Source: Saccoglossus kowalevskii
Taxonomy: Eukaryota > Hemichordata > Enteropneusta > Harrimaniidae
Length of the DNA: 22,317 nt
Reading direction: 5' to 3'
Assembly: GCF_000003605.2 (NCBI RefSeq)
Contig: NW_003133843.1
Coordinates: 783,317-805,633, forward strand
A program made the translations under genes and the position numbers. Positions 2,799-22,317 of this stretch are shown piece by piece. Every line of letters starts with the position of its first letter. Position 1 is the first letter of the stretch. The notes below the pieces were generated by a model. The model was not told the origin of the DNA. It saw only the letters and a program-made list of their open reading frames with translations, and did not search any database.

Positions 2799-2832
2799 GC
2801 CGCTCACCAATTGACAGAAGACCACATTGCTG
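2799..2832 (+). CDS. Gene A exon 2 (N-terminal segment)
   Basis: Acceptor TTTCTTTGACAG precedes 34 bases coding [11 protein letters not shown] plus one base, followed by donor GTAGGT. It corresponds to the 31-bp vertebrate calmodulin exon coding ADQLTEEQIA, with one extra codon and the same phase-1 end. Confidence 0.85.
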
Positions 2833-4922
2833 GTAGGTGACGATTGTTTGGATGATTACAGATAAATAATGCGATATTTGGGTTATTCAAATTCGTAATT
2901 CAATTTACCTTGTGTGTGGTCGTACTACGTGTTATTCATTCGTAAAAAAACATTCCGTGCATTTCTGATTATTTGGAGTACTGGATAGACAGTATTCCCT
3001 CGTGTACTTAATTATCTATCGCAATATTACCGGACCATTCGACTGTTTTATTCCGAAATATGGTGACATTAAGCTCATATGTTCTCGAACAATGGATGTG
3101 TTGTGCGATTTATGACTGAATAATAAAATGTGATGTTTTTTTTTGTTGGTTCTCAACAAATGACAGAATTCAAAGAAGCGTTCTCGTGGTTTGACAAAGA
3201 TGGCGATGGTACAATAACTGCTACTGAGCTGGGATTCGTCGTTAAGGCCCTTGGAATTCCAGCAACCGCGCAAGAACTAGAAGACATGATTGATGAAGTA
3301 GATGACGATGGTAAGAAAATACAAAGCCTTCGCTATATTTAATCAAATATTACAATGTATAAATTAGTGTCAATTGCATATAACATTAACACTATTGTGA
3401 TATTATCTGCAGAATCTATAAGTATATGCTATTTGTCTATTTCATTATCTGTTTCTATCTAATGCACCGTTCTTCCTTTTCTGCACTGGCAGCGCGACTG
3501 GTAGTCGGTAAACAACCAAAAGGTAGGATCAAGTAACAAGCTTTCCACGTCTGTTCTCTTTAACTATTGTACTATTTTCATTATTAAGTTACTTGGATAC
3601 AAAAATATTCTGCATGATATGTGCGCGTTGATCACAGTGAATACTAGCACGCATAGCAACTGTATTCACTGTCATTAGAGCTACGACACGTGGTAAACCA
3701 ATAATGATGACAACAAGAAAACAGTTTATTCTCAGTAGGGATACTGCTACCATTTGTTTGTCAGTAGTGACAATGAGTATTGTATTTTTCCCGACGTGTG
3801 CTAAAATTATGGCAACACGTATTAAGATGTGAAGATATATTTCGCTATTCGAACATTTCAATGAAATATTCCCGCAGGCAACGGAACAATTGATTTCCCG
3901 GAGTTCCTAACTGTCATGGCAAAGAAGCTGAAAGAAGGTGACGAAGATGAACTTCAAGAAGCATTCCGGGTGTTCGACAAAGATAATGGTGGCTCAATAT
4001 CTTACCAAGAATTACGTGACGTCATACGAAATCTTGGGGAAGATTTGACCGATGGTGAGATAGATCAAATGGTACGTGCAGCTGACATCGATGGAGACGG
4101 AGAAATTGATTTTGAAGGTCAGCTTTCTACATTTTTAAAATGCACAACGAACACAATTTAACGTATTTTACTAATAAATATTCCACAATAATTTTAATAA
4201 ATCGGTTCGTAATGCATTCTTGTTAAAACGAGTTTGTTCTTATTTAAAATTTATTTACCACCCGTTATAGACATCTTTCGCCCCAATCACCCAATAATAA
4301 TACCCTCTTATTAAAAAATAAAAAAATAAACACTCAATGGCATGATGTTATAAAATGTTTTCATAGAAGTTCGTTTCCATAATGCACAAATAATTAAATC
4401 ATCATATTATTTTCACTACACTACGCTACGCTATTCTCGCAACGACCACTTTTTCAGTGCTTCCACTCCAGGCATGCTCATCCATCATTCATCTGTATTA
4501 CATTTCCTTTGTATTAACTTGACGCCACGATTATTGGCAGTCAAATTTCAAAGTTGGTCATCGGTGTTTTCATTCTGTTTGAAGTGTTTCATTATAATGC
4601 ATCTTGTTCTTACCGAATCTCGTATTGCTGGACATTGACAACGTCATCGTATTGGTGGGCATAATCGACACTCACATCGTCATCGCATTGGTGGACATAA
4701 TCGACACTTACATCGTCATCGCATTGGTGAGCCATATTCTAATCTGACTTCATCCTTTCTACCTTATCTTTACCTTTTTTCTCTGTCTTTTTACCATTTC
4801 AGAATTCCAGGCTATGGTCATTCCTCATCCAAATGCTCCAAGAATATAACGGATATAGATTTACTACAAATGTTGTATGTCTTTTTTTAGACTTCCGCGC
4901 AATGGTGTTACCGAGAGAGTAG
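2799..4922 (+). CDS. Gene A: divergent calmodulin-like four-EF-hand protein, first exon missing
   Basis: Exons 2799-2832, 3167-3310 and 3878-4117, then a terminal exon starting at either 4803 (stop 4847-4849) or 4891 (stop 4920-4922). The frame is continuous for both endings: 154 or 149 residues plus the unseen N-terminus, against 149 for calmodulin. EF1 loop [12 protein letters not shown] and EF2 loop [12 protein letters not shown] are canonical. EF3 loop [12 protein letters not shown] has Gly at position 5, where calmodulin has the ligand Asn. EF4 loop starts [11 protein letters not shown], and its position 12 is Glu or Asp depending on the last exon. Helix 1 reads [10 protein letters not shown], with a Trp where calmodulin has Leu and normally has no Trp at all. 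Several calmodulin Met positions are Val or Ile, and the central linker is one residue shorter. By family it should be a cytosolic calcium sensor; this is probably a specialised paralogue, not ubiquitous calmodulin. Confidence 0.88.
3167..3310 (+). CDS. Gene A exon 3 (EF-hand 1 and first helix of EF-hand 2)
   Basis: 144 bp, exactly the length of the equivalent vertebrate calmodulin exon. It starts [15 protein letters not shown] and ends at the first Gly codon of EF loop 2, with donor GTAAGA. The acceptor is AACAAATGACAG, behind a T-rich tract. Confidence 0.93.
3878..4117 (+). CDS. Gene A exon 4 (EF-hands 2, 3 and most of 4)
   Basis: 240 bp after acceptor TATTCCCGCAG, ending in donor GTCAGC. 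It equals vertebrate exons 4 and 5 joined (243 bp) minus one linker codon. It codes [17 protein letters not shown], the linker, the [12 protein letters not shown] loop, and EF4 up to the split codon 12. Confidence 0.93.
4446..4490 (+). pseudogene. Possible decayed third copy of the gene A terminal exon
   Basis: Inside the last intron, CCACTTTTTCAG is followed after a few bases by TCCAGGCATGCTCATCC. This aligns with TCCAGGCTATGGTCATTCC of terminal exon a with a one-base deletion. The reading frame does not give the F-x-A-M-V tail. It may be a relic of the same duplication or a chance match. Confidence 0.25.
4651..4730. repeat. 36-bp tandem repeat in the last intron of gene A
   Basis: ATTGGTGG / ATTGGTGA anchors recur at 4651, 4687 and 4723 with ATAATCGACACT and CATCGTCATCG between them, giving a little over two copies of a 36-bp unit. 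It is intronic, so the multiple-of-three length probably has no coding meaning. Confidence 0.8.
4803..4849 (+). CDS. Gene A terminal exon, version a (EF4 Glu-12)
   Basis: A strong pyrimidine tract and acceptor (TTTTACCATTTCAG) precede bases that complete codon 12 of EF loop 4 as GAA (Glu). The tail then reads [14 protein letters not shown] and ends in TAA. FQAMV matches calmodulin FVQMM in position. No donor is seen, so a transcript using this acceptor would carry version b as 3' UTR. Confidence 0.8.
4891..4922 (+). CDS. Gene A terminal exon, version b (EF4 Asp-12)
   Basis: Acceptor TGTCTTTTTTTAG lies 88 bases downstream of the version-a acceptor. The exon completes codon 12 as GAC (Asp) and codes FRAMVLPRE before TAG. 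It resembles version a in both DNA and peptide (pattern F-x-A-M-V-x-P), pointing to a tandem exon duplication. Which version is used cannot be read from sequence. Confidence 0.78.
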
Positions 4923-5799
4923 AACACTTGTCGTTAATGTACACGAGAAGGTCGTATTTACGGGGTTTCACATCTATCACGTGATATATGACGCACCTAG
5001 TACTGCAATAGACACAGCTTTTAGTTGTACGTCGTCAATCATTCCATAAGTTATACATTCACCAAAACCAGTTAATGAACTGAACCTTTGTTGATGTAGA
5101 CCAGTCAGTACATAGTAAACACATAGTGTTTTAGTGACTCAATATAAGCATAGTTATCATTTTATATTTATATATAAACTATAAATGCTATTGCTTTTGG
5201 GCTTGGCGTGTATACATTGCCACATATGTGTGTTATATGAATATGTACTTCCACAGGCATGTATTTAGTGTTGTGTGGAGGCCAGCTTTTGTTCTATTTA
5301 ACCATTATGTTTCATTTCGGCTGATCAATTTTCTATTTCTGAGGAAGATAATTTACAAGCTTTAAAGTGCAAATGCGCTAGATTTATGTTATAATTTTAC
5401 GGGATTATTCTCGGTACGAAATCATGTCAACATGTGTAGTTTACTTTAATATATCGTGAATCAGCAATTTTAATTCATTCCCAAGTAGATAGTCCCACAT
5501 ACATCCGCCAATAAGTGTCATTACAGTTGTGTTTTGTCACGCTTTCTTAATCAACACGTTGTTGGTTACAACAACCAGATTCCAACACCTCCGAGCATTT
5601 TGTGAACCGACCAATGCTACCATGGGTATTTTGTCATGTATATTTATAGAGATGTTCATTCGTTGTAGTAGATTTCACCAATTGTAAATATGTAAAATAA
5701 CACTAGATGTAATTCATATCATCATCGTTCTATATTTTATGATATTTCGCACCCTGGTGTTTACTTGGGGTTGGCGTTCATAAGAAATTTATAAAATGC

Positions 5800-5805
5800 A
5801 ATAAA
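5800..5805 (+). terminator. Candidate polyadenylation signal for gene A
   Basis: AATAAA hexamer about 880 bases downstream of the gene A stop codons, the first I found on this strand. The position is plausible for a long 3' UTR but is not otherwise supported. Confidence 0.3.
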
Positions 5806-6212
5806 TATAATCTATATAAGCTTTAAGTGAATGCAATACCGCATAGTTGTTTGCATTGTATAAATACAGTCAATTCTTTGTTGGGGTCAAAGGTGAAAGT
5901 TGTACAATAATAAAAAGTGTTACAGATCGTCGTCGTCACTTATTTTTCCCAGAGAACAATACATCAAGACACACCGATGTTGCTTGTCATGTCGGAAATG
6001 ATACACCGAAATGAATGATTATTAATATAAATGTAAATCTTTTAAACGACATTAAGCACATTGGTATTTGTTGCTGCCTTGTTCCATTCAAGTGGGCGCT
6101 TTGTCCGAGCTAACCGTTCTAAGGGTCTAGCCTGTGTTTTAAGAGTGGGTCACATTTTGCTCGTACTTGCTATTTCTTAGCATATACTAAGTGTTTGCGC
6201 ATGATTTCTTGA

Positions 6213-6245
6213 CACGGGCTAACGTTTTTAATCACATAGCCCGTG
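6213..6245. repeat. Short perfect inverted repeat
   Basis: CACGGGCTA at 6213-6221 is matched by TAGCCCGTG at 6237-6245 with a 15-base loop. It is a 9-bp perfect stem of unknown role. Confidence 0.6.
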
Positions 6246-6394
6246 GCAAGAACCTGTGTATGTAACTATCATCTCTTGAGGTATAGGTCATCCTTATTAT
6301 ATGGAATGAAATCATCGAAGTGTTCTCTCCTATACTGGTTACACGTCACTATAGTAAACAGGGTAAATTAACGTATTATATGTATTATGTACAT

Positions 6395-7155: not shown

Positions 7156-7205
7156 TTAATGCAAGCGTTTGAAGAGACTTTCACCGGCCATGATGTGTAC
7201 GAATT
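7156..7205 (-). CDS. Gene B terminal exon
   Basis: Acceptor TTTGTTTGTTTCAG precedes AATTCGTACACATCATGG, which completes codon 12 of EF4 as GAA (Glu). The tail reads [15 protein letters not shown] before TAA and is longer than calmodulin's FVQMMTAK by several basic and hydrophobic residues. Confidence 0.85.
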
Positions 7206-10200
7206 CTGAAACAAACAAAAAATAAATATATTCAACAATCATTTTATTGTGTCTAACGCCTGAATACGATACGTGTATTGCCTGTAATGTTCATGTTGAC
7301 CCACATGTTTCCTACAGCTACTCATACTACGTGTCGTTCCAAAGTAATCGAAGACATCAGCCAATAACAACACTAGAATTTGTTGCACAGTTACATAGAA
7401 ACAATGCTTGATACGATACAACCCCCCCCCCTCAAGATCGTCACATTAAATATACGTACAAGCGAATCAATATTGATATGAATTTACTCGCATATCCCAA
7501 ACTTAGTAAATACGTCTTATACTACATTGTACATTTTCAATCAGGTATCAGGGGGAAGATCTTCCTCCACGGGGTTCCTCCACACTTGCCAGGGGGGAAT
7601 CTCGTCTCGTCTCTATATCTCGTCCCCTTGAGGTACGGGATCGGGGAAGTCACTTATACTTTACAGTCAAATAAGAAACACACAACGAAATACGTTTCAG
7701 CTCTCGTCTTAGTCGGTCAATCGAGCACTCTATAAGACACGGCGCCCTGGGGAAAAATCCCCAAGACTATCGCAAGGCTGACCCAAGACTCTCTTAGACT
7801 GCGTCAACACTCGCCCCAAGGCTCTCCAGGACTGCACTACGACTGCCCAGGAGTGCGTCTATCGTGGAGTACTCGCCAAGACCAACTCAAACTCTCTTTA
7901 TTCATTTTCAAAACTCTAACTAATTACAAAACAGTAAAAAGACTCTAGGGCGTAACCTTCAATCTTAAAGCCAATCACACTAAGCACTGAATACGTCATA
8001 TTGTTTGATTAATCGTTCACTACATTAATAACTATGAATATAAACTGTCAGAATGATTAGTCTGAATAGCGGCGGTTATCTGGTAATTAGTTCCAAATCA
8101 CTGAGCCAAGTTCCGTCCAAAACTTCAAATAGGCCTAAACGATGACAGACATAACACAGCAATTCAGCTAATAATCAGCTAATTAAGTCGGTTAACAGAT
8201 ACGCAAAAACAAATTCATGACACAGGACACAAATTGTAAACCCATCCGCGCGCTGCATGGCTCAACTATGCGACCAATATTTGTACACAAAATAGTGAAG
8301 CTTACCTTCGTAATTAACATGACCATCTCCATCAATGTCCGCTTCTCTTATCATTTCATCTACTTCACCGTCAGTTAATTTCTCTCCTAGATTGACCATA
8401 ACGTAACGTAACTCTGCTGCGCTGATTAACCCATTACCGTCCCTGTCGAATACTTTAAAGGCTTCGCGTAATTCCTCTTCAGGATCAAGTTCCTGCTTCT
8501 TTCGAATCATCATCTCAATGAACTCGTTGAACTCAATAGTTCCATTGCCTTTTCAGAAAACAACAACAAAAAACGAAATCACAAAATACATAAGGGAAGA
8601 GGGCGCTATAATTGGTTTGGGGAACTCATGCGTTGATACGTTTATTGTATGTATATAATAAACACAATGTAAATAAAAGGAGGGCTGATCTCTTACCGTT
8701 TTCGTCCACGTCACTAATCATGTCTTTAAGTTCAGCTTCTGTTGGATTCATTCCCAGTGATCGCATGACTATACCAAGCTCTTCTCGCGTTATGGCACCG
8801 TCCCCATTCTTGTCGAACATTGAAAATGCCTCCTTAAATTCTAGGAGAAAATTAACAATTACATTAACTATATATATATATATACATTTATATATATATA
8901 TTATTGTGCCATGTGAAGGGTTACTACTCAGTTTTTCTCATATATTTGTTATCGGATTTTTATTACCAGAAAAACGCCATCGGCCCTAAGAGGTTAGTAC
9001 ATATCACAAGATTATTCTTTTTTTTCCAGTTACAATAATACTTCAGTGGCATCCCTTCTAAACTTAAACGCCTGGTACACAAAATCTGCAACACGTTGTA
9101 AAAGTGATTCATTTGGGGTTGTAAGAAAATTATAAATTTAATATCTGTCGGCGGAGTAAAATAGAAATGTTGTATATAACGGTTTCTGATTTCTTGGTAA
9201 AAATTACATAAAAGTAAAAAATGTAATTCGTTTTCAATTACATTTAGATCACAAAACTCACATAAGCGCTGGTTTCTCTCAAAAGAACTCCGCCCTCTCT
9301 CTATTCTTAGACAATGGGATGAACAACGTAACCGTACTAAAGCTTGTACATGGGTATTGACTTTAACAGATAATAAATATATTTCCGGCTCAAGGGTAGA
9401 TTTAAAGAAACATGTGTATCTAGTTTGTCCAATGAGCAGATATCTGCCCTCACTCACAAGTTAAAAGAACCTTTACATTACTGACTTCATGGGCAAACCA
9501 AACCTCAGTCATATCGTAAAGTAAATTTCTAACATCATATAGTGGAATCTAACCACCTTCTTTTATTGTTTTCCTCCCCTTGTTACTAGCGTTACAGATT
9601 GGAAGTAGCATTTACACGTAACCCAAAGGTGGGAAGGAGTCAAAGCAAATTTAGCTGGTTAGGAAATTGTAGTAATTCTTTTAACAATTCAATTTCTTCT
9701 CTTTCTGTCAAAAGTAAGCTTATTGAAATTGTAGAATCACCTGACATCAATATTAATTAATGTATACATATTTTACAGGGGTGCTGAAGACACCTGCAGG
9801 AAAAAGTCGTGTGACATCTTCCAATTTTGGGTGTAAGCGTGATCAACCGATATGGTTTGACAGCACATGTAAAAATTCTCAAAGTGCGAAAATATCAATT
9901 GTTACGGAGATTTTGGCATACAAACCACCCTGACCATTTGAGAGCTTATCGGAGTGCGCGCAACACATTTAAATACACTTGCCATGAAAGAAAGCAAATT
10001 ATCTTACATGGATACACAGGAAGCAAACATAATGACTTTTACAAACAGTAGTAAACAGTTATGGTCCACGATTAGAGGCATTTTTTCGAAAAATATCATC
10101 ATTTTATGGGGTGATTATTTTAGTAATCTCTATTCTATCTCGACAACAAATGATGTGTTTATTTATAACACTGAATTGTTAAGTTATTTGGAATCAGTTG

Positions 10201-10823
10201 ATACCTTTACGTATGACAGGGAAATTGACTTAAATATTTTGAATGGCCAAAACACAGAATCGAAAATTACTGAAAGTATCAAACATCTAAAATAATAAAT
10301 CCCCTTCTTGGTGATTTTTTAAAAGTAATATTCAGATTCTGTTTCCATACTTAATACTGCATTTTAATAAAGTATTTGATTCTGGTGTTGTTCCAATTGA
10401 GTGGTCAAAGGTGATATTCGTTCCCATTTATAAAAAAAAATGGCGCAAAAAGTGATCCAGGTCATTTAATAGAGCGATATCGCTACTTAGTATTTTAGTA
10501 AGTTTTTTTTATTCATTTTAAATGCACGCTTAACTTTTTGGGCGAATGCCTTGGGGAAAATCGACGAGGCACAGGCTGAGTTTAGGCATGGTTATTCGAC
10601 ATTTGATAACATCTATATACTTCAGTCCGCAGCTCAAAGGCATATTACCAACAAACGTTGTAAATTATACTGTGCCTTTGTCGAAGATTGTGGTATGTTT
10701 TGCTCAAAGGGGGTGTCAACGGGAAGATGTTTAAAGTATTACATAATATGTATGCAAATACCAAATCGTGTGTTAGGACTATGAATGGAAATCGGATTAT
10801 TTTAACTGCCCCATACGGTATAC

Positions 10824-15406: not shown

Positions 15407-15441
15407 TCAAACACTTTCTTCTCCCATCATCTTCACAAAAT
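15407..15441 (-). CDS. Gene C terminal exon (EF4 Asp-12)
   Basis: Acceptor CCTTCATTCTTTTTAG, then AT completing codon 12 as GAT (Asp), then [10 protein letters not shown] and TGA. It is only 154 bp from exon 4. FVKMM matches calmodulin FVQMM. Confidence 0.9.
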
Positions 15442-20446: not shown

Positions 20447-22317
20447 CAATGAATAGCGATATGTGTTTCCGATTCCCACGTCAACACGTACACACTTGCT
20501 ATATGAGAGGCAATATATGTCTCCGATTTTCACGTCATTATGTACACACTTGATATATGAGTAGCGATATGTGTCCCCGATTCTCACGTCAACATGTACA
20601 CATTTGCTATATGAGTAGCGATATGTGTTCCCGATTCCCATGTCAACACGTACACAATTGCTACATTAATAGCGATATGTGTTTTCGATTCCCATGTCAA
20701 CATGTACACACTTGCTATATGAGTAGCGAAATGTGTCTCCGATTTCCACGTCAACATGTACACACTTGCTATATGAGTAGCGATATGTGTCCCCGATTCT
20801 CACGTCAACATGTGCACACTTGCTACATGAGTAGCGATATGTGTCCCCGATTCCCACGTCAACATGTACACACTTGCTACATGAGTAGCGATATGTGTCC
20901 CCGATTCCCACGTCAGCATGTACACACTTGCTATATGAGTAGCGATATGTGTCCCTGATTTCCACGTCAATACGTACACACTTGATATATGAATAGCGCA
21001 ATGTGTCTCCTATTCCCACGTCAACATGTGCACATTTGATATATGAGTAGCAATATGTGTCCCCGATTCTCACGTCAACATGTACACATTTGCAATATGA
21101 GTAGCGATATGTGTCCCTGATTTCCACGTCAATATGTACACACTTGCTATATGAATATCGATATGTGTCCCTGATTTCCACGTCAACATGTACACACTTG
21201 CTATATGAGTAGCGATATGTGTCTCCTATTCCCACGTTAACATGTACACACTTGCTATATGAGTAGCGATACGTGTTTCCGATTTCCACGTCAACATGTG
21301 CACATTTGATATATGAGTAGCGATATGTGTCCCCGATTCTCACGTCAACATGTACACACTTGCTATATGAGTAGCGAAATGTGTCTCCGATTTCCACGTC
21401 AATATGTACACATTTGCTATATGAGTAGCGATATGTGTCTACGATTTCCACGTGAACTCGTACGCACTTGCTATATGAATAGCGATACGTGTCCCCGATT
21501 TCCATGCCAACACGTACACACTTAAAGCTTGTTATATGAGTAGCGATATGTGTTCCCGATTCCCACGTCAACACGTACACACTTGCTACATGAGTAGCGA
21601 TATGTGTCTCCGATTTCCACGTCAACACGTAGTACACATTTGATATATGAATAGCGATATGTATCTCCGATTTCCAGGCAAACACGTACACACTTGCTAT
21701 ATGAGTAGCGATATGTGTTCCCGATTTCCACATCAACATGCACACACTTGCTATATGAGTAGCGATACGTGTTTCCGATTTCCACGTCAACATGTACACA
21801 TTTGATATATGAGTAGCGATATGTGTCCCCGATTCTCACGTCAACATGTACACACTTGCTATATGAATAGCGATACGTGTCCCCGATTTCCATGCCAACA
21901 CGTACACACTTAAAGCTTGCTATATGAGTAGCGATATGTGTTCCCGATTCCCACGTCAACACGTTCACACTTGCTACATGAGTAGCGATATGTGTCCCCG
22001 ATTTCCACGTCAATATGTATACACTTGATATATGAATAGCGATATGTGTCTCCGATTTCCACGTACACACTTGCTACATGAGTAGCGATATGTGTCCCCG
22101 ATTTCCACGTCAACATGTACACACTTGCTATATGAGTAGCGATATTTGTCCCCGATTCCCACGTCAACATCTACAAACTTGCTATATGAGTAACGATATG
22201 TGTTTCCGATTCCCACGTCAACACGTACACACTTGCTATATGAATATCGATATGTGTCCCTGATTTCCATGTCAACATGTACACACTTGATATATGAGTA
22301 GCAATATGTGTCCCCGA
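20447..22317. repeat. 54-bp tandem satellite array
   Basis: About 34 copies of a 54-bp unit, running off the right edge. Landmarks in each unit are CTTGCTATATGAGTAGCGAT, ATGTGTCCCCGATT and CCCACGTCAACATGTACAC. Because 54 is a multiple of three and the unit lacks stops in some frames, it reads as long open frames on both strands (18-residue repeats, up to 377 codons on the minus strand). These have no independent support as genes. Insertions such as AAAGCTT near 21524 and 21912 shift those frames. Confidence 0.97.
21255..22046. repeat. Higher-order duplication inside the 54-bp array
   Basis: A multi-unit block starting near 21255 recurs from near 21751. It shares the same series of variant monomers, including the private 7-base insertion in CTTAAAGCTTG (21521 and 21909) and the variant CCATGCCAACACG before it. 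The second block lacks about two monomers. Confidence 0.75.

Follow-up and report, generated by a model that had tools for sequence, protein, structure and literature searches.

Two putatively competing last exons in a calmodulin-like gene of Saccoglossus kowalevskii, with Glu or Asp at the last ligand of EF-hand 4

Can one calmodulin-like gene provide two calcium sensors by choosing between two last exons? The question is raised by gene A, a calmodulin-like gene on the plus strand of a 22,317-nucleotide stretch of DNA from the hemichordate Saccoglossus kowalevskii (NW_003133843.1, positions 783,317 to 805,633; contig C2559 of a 572 Mb, 4830-contig assembly), the whole of which is called the window below. 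An initial annotation of the window had proposed that two acceptors in the last intron of gene A compete for one donor, that the choice between them switches position 12 of EF loop 4 between Glu and Asp, and that metal binding and C-terminal tail might thereby be tuned together. The diversity of the animal calmodulin family is usually ascribed to gene copies; if the proposal were true, splice choice would alter a direct metal ligand of a calmodulin-like sensor. We find that the two endings are each other's closest relatives and that their differences bear the mark of coding constraint, and we put the probability that both are genuine and used at least somewhere at roughly 0.6.

Two acceptors and two endings behind one donor

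Exon 4 of gene A (3878..4117) runs from EF2 to position 11 of EF loop 4 and includes the first base of codon 12. The donor that follows (AAG|GTCAGC, 4118..4123; 99.0th percentile of 2977 GTs) leaves this G on the upstream exon, so that the intron splits codon 12 after its first base. The first acceptor region (4739..4802) contains the branch-like motifs CTAAT and CTGAC, whose A residues (4742 and 4747) precede the exon by 61 and 56 nt, and four weaker motifs nearer to it, followed by a pyrimidine tract and CAG. It opens terminal mini-exon 1 (coding sequence 4803..4849), in which codon 12 is completed as (G)AA, that is, Glu, and an in-frame tail leads to a stop. The second region (4860..4890) has a TTTAC branch-like motif with its A at 4863, 28 nt from the exon, a pyrimidine tract and TAG, and opens mini-exon 2 (coding sequence 4891..4922), in which codon 12 becomes (G)AC, Asp, followed by FRAMVLPRE and a stop. 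No AG lies between motif and acceptor in either case. The acceptors score 8.66 and 8.08, corresponding to the 98.8th and 98.3rd percentiles among the 2131 AGs that the window contains on its two strands; these scores come from an approximate matrix made for this analysis, and all percentiles are taken over the AGs or GTs of the window. The acceptors after 4802 and 4890, 88 bp apart, are thus where the initial annotation had placed them, to the base, and its description of their strength, pyrimidine tracts, short in-frame endings, split codon and Glu/Asp alternative agrees with our reading at every point. A common donor with two functional-looking acceptors, each with branch-like motifs of its own, has the form of an alternative 3' splice site pair.

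The two predicted proteins differ also in the tail beyond residue 12, and this difference may carry more weight than residue 12 itself. In a scan of 4101-6300, neither AATAAA nor ATTAAA occurs between the two mini-exons, and the first AATAAA 3' of both endings lies at 5800..5805, with another at 5909. Therefore, both endings could share one 3' end, and a message stopping at mini-exon 1 would carry mini-exon 2 in its 3' untranslated region (UTR). Other AATAAA motifs occur in the last intron at 4173, 4196, 4317 and 4325 (within 4118-4330). If the donor at 4118 were left unused, the frame would run on with Gly-12 as a possible third ending, which in this AT-rich intron may be chance. A 36-bp unit is repeated 2.8 times at 4631-4729 in the same intron, just upstream of acceptor 1.

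Three other AGs were considered as rival acceptors and rejected. The AG at 4472 scores above both acceptors (99.7th percentile) yet opens not even a loose EF-hand ending; that at 4811 shifts the frame; and that at 5257 (score 7.0) fits the loose motif only, with Gly-12. An arrangement of mutually exclusive internal exons, of the alpha-actinin type, was rejected because no strong donor accompanies mini-exon 1 within 4801-4960, the best reaching the 85.3rd percentile. Each copy ends in a stop, and 41 bp (4850-4890) separate the stop of mini-exon 1 from mini-exon 2.

Upstream, gene A comprises exon 2 (2799..2832; acceptor at the 99.3rd and donor at the 99.6th percentile), exon 3 (3167..3310; EF1 and the start of EF2), which has a weak acceptor (66.2nd percentile) and a donor at the 99.4th percentile, and exon 4, whose acceptor is at the 95.6th percentile. 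Joined, exons 2-4 give a calmodulin-like reading that is free of stops through either ending. Residues 1-144 of the Glu form align with PDB calmodulins, the best plain calmodulin having E = 1.3e-57, and Pfam recognizes four EF-hands (EF-hand_1 stretches) in each spliced form, as is expected of a calmodulin-like EF-hand protein with full-length similarity to calmodulin. The near-identity that marks a canonical animal calmodulin is lacking. Because its C-lobe exon shares only 67% identity with a manually entered calmodulin query, and 65% with the most similar sequence at another place in the genome, gene A is, judged by sequence, a diverged calmodulin-like gene and not canonical calmodulin. Exon 4 is one codon shorter than in genes B and C1507. 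Position 5 of EF loop 3 is Gly, so that the C-lobe of gene A may already bind calcium weakly. Compared with nine paralogous exons, exon 4 gives ratios of nonsynonymous to synonymous differences per site (pN/pS) of 0.25-0.49, with synonymous sites near saturation. A tree of the ten paralogous exons had none of its seven inner branches well supported, and its bootstrap had not settled. In both the tree and the pN/pS list, the row for the C1214 gene opens with a few codons beyond a break in its frame. An in-frame ATG ACA at 3160, just before the weakly accepted exon 3, could be an alternative start (MTEFKEAF...) that skips exon 2.

Kinship of the mini-exons and the case against chance

Among 11 terminal exons, the two mini-exons of gene A are each other's nearest relatives. 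They agree in 15 of 23 bases, whereas the next-best partner of either agrees in 12, and their BLOSUM sum is 31, compared with next-best sums of 13 (copy 1) and 18 (copy 2). Both contain AMV-x-P, which occurs in none of the nine other terminal exons. The alignment of the pair spans 40 columns including the pyrimidine tract, and its score was reached by 1 of 500 pairs shuffled by single bases. The differences between the copies fall mostly on third positions, of which 6 of 8 differ, compared with 2 of 15 positions that come first or second in their codon (Fisher p = 0.006). Copies to which eight changes were made at random kept at least this protein similarity in only 10 of 20,000 trials starting from copy 1 and 28 of 20,000 starting from copy 2. 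Since most third positions have changed while the similarity of the protein was kept, the pattern points to an old duplication under constraint. Two adjacent, in-frame and sequence-related last exons are what a tandem-duplicated terminal exon consists of, and the simplest reading would be that acceptor and mini-exon were duplicated in tandem long ago and that both copies have been held to the protein code. The only other DNA match of the region is a partial hit, 71% identical, to another calmodulin gene, and one scan of viral contigs returned no relatives from outside the animal's own genome.

Several observations weigh against the reading that both endings are genuine and used. The constraint test covers 23 sites only, and the pair was noticed because the two proteins are similar, which biases it; moreover, a copy that had lost its function only recently would still appear constrained. 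The region is single-copy in its own assembly, which thus offers no second haplotype for comparison. Five-letter branch-like motifs occur frequently in AT-rich DNA. An exon with the start codon was not found upstream of gene A within the window, where only two weak ATG|GT places occur (1323 and 1536). The pattern AGAMTTYNNNNNNATG matches twice in the window, exactly at both endings, against 0.35 matches expected, but 3 of 100 shuffles also reached two matches, so that loose patterns alone are not rare; likewise, the loose pattern CAGAATTCNNNNNNATG occurs at no fewer than 295 places in the 572 Mb, compared with 33 for a reversed control, and is therefore not rare genome-wide. Finally, Asp-12 seems to be present in two of eight paralogs that have a single ending, and a difference in the residue alone is therefore no sign of a switch; the Glu/Asp difference between the two endings could have arisen by ordinary drift once the exon had been duplicated.

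With regard to chance, a stricter test was more specific. It required an acceptor score of at least 6 together with an in-phase [ED][FYL]xx[MLI][MVIL], and covered both strands of the window and of 21 loci from the same genome, some of them overlapping, amounting to 353,550 bases and 15,126 AGs (668 of which score at least 6). The 13 resulting rows correspond to 12 places, and ten of these are last exons of calmodulin-like genes, the gene A pair included; one of the ten, at locus L037, is without a verified donor side. The other two are EF2 coding sequence and a place at L031 that looks like chance. Two stray hits per 353,550 bases give an expectation of about 0.0006 within 100 bases, for a motif that was composed after the endings had been seen and that misses the last exon of one paralog (C4738b, below). 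By this empirical count, in which 10 of 12 places are last exons, a chance origin of the second ending is rejected as unlikely; the looser tests are weaker in this respect.

Paralogs, rival accounts and the favored mechanism

At least eight paralogs in the genome have a verified split of codon 12, namely genes B and C of the window, two genes each on contigs C1507 and C4738, and one each on C1214 and C1146. Every one of these eight has a single convincing ending, six with Glu and two seemingly with Asp. Since the split is common to at least eight paralogs, the Glu/Asp difference in gene A follows from the position of the intron: the donor side supplies G, which limits codon 12 to Glu, Asp, Gly, Ala or Val, and among these Glu/Asp is the mildest change. 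The apparent Asp-12 of two single-ended genes further suggests that, in this family, drift of residue 12 between Glu and Asp needs no switch. Gene C, which is calmodulin-like, has its last exon on the minus strand at 15407-15441 (acceptor score 10.3) with Asp at EF4 position 12, and that of the likewise calmodulin-like gene B, at 7156-7205 on the minus strand, has an unusually long tail. The second Asp case, C4738b, has its last exon on the minus strand of contig C4738 (locus L016, about 8149; acceptor score 3.8), reading DFRKFMIAGNIEGGEQLLEENEC and a stop with probable Asp-12; copy 1 aside, it is the ending closest to copy 2 of gene A. A Glu ending for the same gene (EFQSMEYEC..., score 4.6 and thus above 3.8) lies 2 kb further on and is probably chance, as it fails the stricter motif. 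The preferred Asp ending fails that motif too, and was retained for its position near the donor and its resemblance to the exit helix of an EF-hand. In the C1214 calmodulin gene, a candidate second ending (DFRVF and a stop, score 5.2) also fails the stricter motif and is probably chance.

Other family members, such as those on contigs C3770 and C3285, read through the codon-12 point without a split. Contig C3285 (L039 and L040, 68400-77400 and 78400-88399) carries clustered calmodulin-like genes that seem to be intronless and have long open frames, in addition to the intron-bearing genes at other places. The C1214 gene has a C-lobe 93% identical to calmodulin, and its reading frame is broken between EF2 and EF3 (L012, about 738-760) with one TGA, owing to either an assembly error or a damaged copy.

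The mechanism that we favor would start from an ancient tandem duplication of a block of about 40 bp that comprised the last exon of gene A and its 3' splice site. From then on, the donor at 4118 could be joined to one or the other of two 3' splice sites that lie 88 bp apart and compete. Each copy would bring a branch-point-like motif, a pyrimidine tract, an AG, eight related codons and a stop of its own. Choice of the first site would give Glu-12 and the first tail, with mini-exon 2 becoming part of the 3' UTR, whereas choice of the second would give Asp-12 and FRAMVLPRE. Nonsense-mediated decay is expected, according to the exon-junction rule, when an intron lies downstream of the stop; as neither predicted mRNA has a recognized intron there, neither should undergo it. 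The first site is probably the default, because its AG is the first one below a good branch-like motif and is part of CAG rather than TAG; for the second to be used, the first would have to lose strength or be skipped. The Asp form would be expected to bind Ca2+ more loosely at EF4, or to tolerate Mg2+ there, in addition to having a different tail.

The features that mark the first site as a default also suit a rival account, in which acceptor 1 is the only one used and mini-exon 2 is a relic of the duplication within the 3' UTR, from which no protein is made. With CTAAT/CTGAC at 56-61 nt upstream, a long pyrimidine tract and CAG, the first site is laid out in the classical way, and a scanning spliceosome would meet it first. 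Predicted RNA folds leave the second tract less open (mean unpaired 0.35-0.36, vs 0.44-0.73 for the first) and pair the second AG in all three fold windows (unpaired 0.05-0.14). However, the first AG, too, is largely paired in both longer fold windows (unpaired 0.01 and 0.15, vs 0.59 in the shortest one), and copy 2 has kept a strong acceptor, the frame, the conserved FRAMVLP and the stop despite differences at six of eight third positions. We consider such a relic unlikely. The opposite polarity, in which mini-exon 2 is the main or original ending and mini-exon 1 a newer or weaker copy, the two being redundant and the Glu/Asp difference without a functional role, could draw on the Asp-12 endings of gene C (15441, minus strand) and probably of C4738b. 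Yet copy 1 has the slightly stronger acceptor and shares its Glu with six of the eight donor-verified single-ended paralogs, which makes this polarity improbable in our view. That gene A is a decaying pseudogene, so that neither ending is of consequence, would agree with the start-codon exon that was not found upstream in the window, the weak acceptor of exon 3 and the Gly in EF loop 3, but exons 2-4 and both endings are open, all splice sites other than the exon 3 acceptor are at or above the 95.6th percentile, and the pN/pS values against paralogs are 0.25-0.49; we regard decay as very improbable.

Returning to the reading that both endings are genuine and used at least somewhere, it does not by itself imply regulation. 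A stronger version, in which one gene A message yields two calcium sensors through a regulated, tissue- or stage-dependent choice of 3' splice site, with a Ca2+-selective form that has the bidentate Glu and a Mg2+-tolerant Asp form with its own tail, is plausible but in our judgment somewhat doubtful. It is in this respect that the initial annotation has to be qualified: its two acceptors, the in-frame endings, the codon split and the Glu/Asp alternative are supported, whereas a choice that tunes metal binding and tail together is a putative function, and the case for it is weakened by the codon split common to at least eight paralogs and by the apparent Asp-12 in two of these with one ending. 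Regulation by RNA structure was rejected, since the fold of 4600-4960 is no better than that of shuffled sequences (z = 1.61; 93 of 100 shuffles gave an equally good or better fold), and the differences in unpaired probability between the two sites are no proof of it. Beyond gene A, any gene whose intron lies in this phase of codon 12 would, on duplicating its short last exon, at once acquire a choice among Glu, Asp, Gly, Ala and Val at the ligand. Such second last exons would be missed by gene predictors that overlook short exons.

Elsewhere in the window, tandem arrays flank the calmodulin-like genes at both ends (2-1315, 30.5 copies of a 43-bp unit; 20449-22317, 34.4 copies of a 54-bp unit). 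Open frames at about 8963-9460 (minus strand) and 10491-10784 (plus strand) are presumably broken pieces of a non-LTR (long terminal repeat) retrotransposon, which they resemble.

Position 12 and comparable systems

The statement of the initial annotation that Asp at position 12 lowers Ca2+ affinity or favors Mg2+ is borne out for other EF-hand proteins (PMC2873350; PMC9177970). A change from Glu to Asp at this position is described as shifting an EF-hand from Ca2+ towards Mg2+, which was predicted and confirmed for EF1 of CaBP1 (PMC2873350). Asp occupies the position in about 10% of EF-hands, which select less strictly among cations (PMC9177970). In human calmodulin, the substitution E140G, which affects the same residue, lowers the calcium affinity of the C-lobe about 17-fold (PMC9830374); Asp at the equivalent position should be milder than Gly. 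Exon splits in human EF-hand genes cluster around codon 12 (PMC9177970), and C-terminal swaps account for 77 of 236 human duplicated-exon events (PMC9741552).

Duplicated last exons and duplicated EF-hand exons are already known, whereas no gene of the calmodulin family in which last exons compete came up in searches of the open-access literature, which covered mostly the best-ranked papers of longer lists. The exon plan of gene A fits that of abalone calmodulin, reportedly shared by the sea squirt, which has five exons, the first with only the start codon and exon 4 without an intron (PMC6171432). The excerpt on abalone mentions no alternative last exon, where gene A has two, and the abalone calmodulins are 94-98% similar to human calmodulin (PMC6171432). 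Sorcin, like gene A, encodes an EF-hand protein whose C-terminus is altered by a new last exon, which was predicted and then confirmed by reverse transcription polymerase chain reaction (RT-PCR) and sequencing; unlike gene A, it is a penta-EF-hand protein, and the abstract mentions no changed EF ligand (PMC10502117). Grapevine CML21 (PMC7663043) and caldendrin/CaBP1 (PMC4110014) are also calmodulin-like with alternative splicing, but in both it is the N-terminal region that changes, and not the last exon or an EF ligand.

Parallels to the duplication itself come from tropomyosin and Drosophila pip. As far as is known, their terminal exons are separate exons, whereas both endings of gene A fit into 120 bp and possibly share one 3' end, as in an alternative 3' splice site event, and the exchange extends into a metal ligand. 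Like gene A, tropomyosin (PMC9741552) and pip (PMC9013439) have related last exons that arose by tandem duplication, through which C-termini (in pip, 3' UTRs) are exchanged, and the tandem terminal exons of pip are used exclusively of each other (PMC9013439).

Within the EF-hand region, the comparison is with alpha-actinin. There the EF-hand exons are internal and picked as whole exons in a large cytoskeletal protein, whereas in gene A, which encodes a small sensor, two acceptors would compete for a last exon, and the change would be confined to the final ligand and the tail. Both have tandem-duplicated exons in this region, and in alpha-actinin (ACTN1/ACTN4) only one of the two duplicated exons retains calcium binding (PMC9741552; PMC9177970; PMC4435478). 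The variation at the ligand has its own counterpart in the CaBP proteins, in which Glu/Asp differences at position 12 occur naturally and are taken to predict Ca2+ or Mg2+ binding; the functional EF1 of zebrafish CaBP2, 4 and 5 and of human CaBP5 provides such an Asp/Glu case (PMC2873350). In the CaBP proteins this variation lies between genes and species, whereas in gene A it would lie between the splice forms of a single gene.

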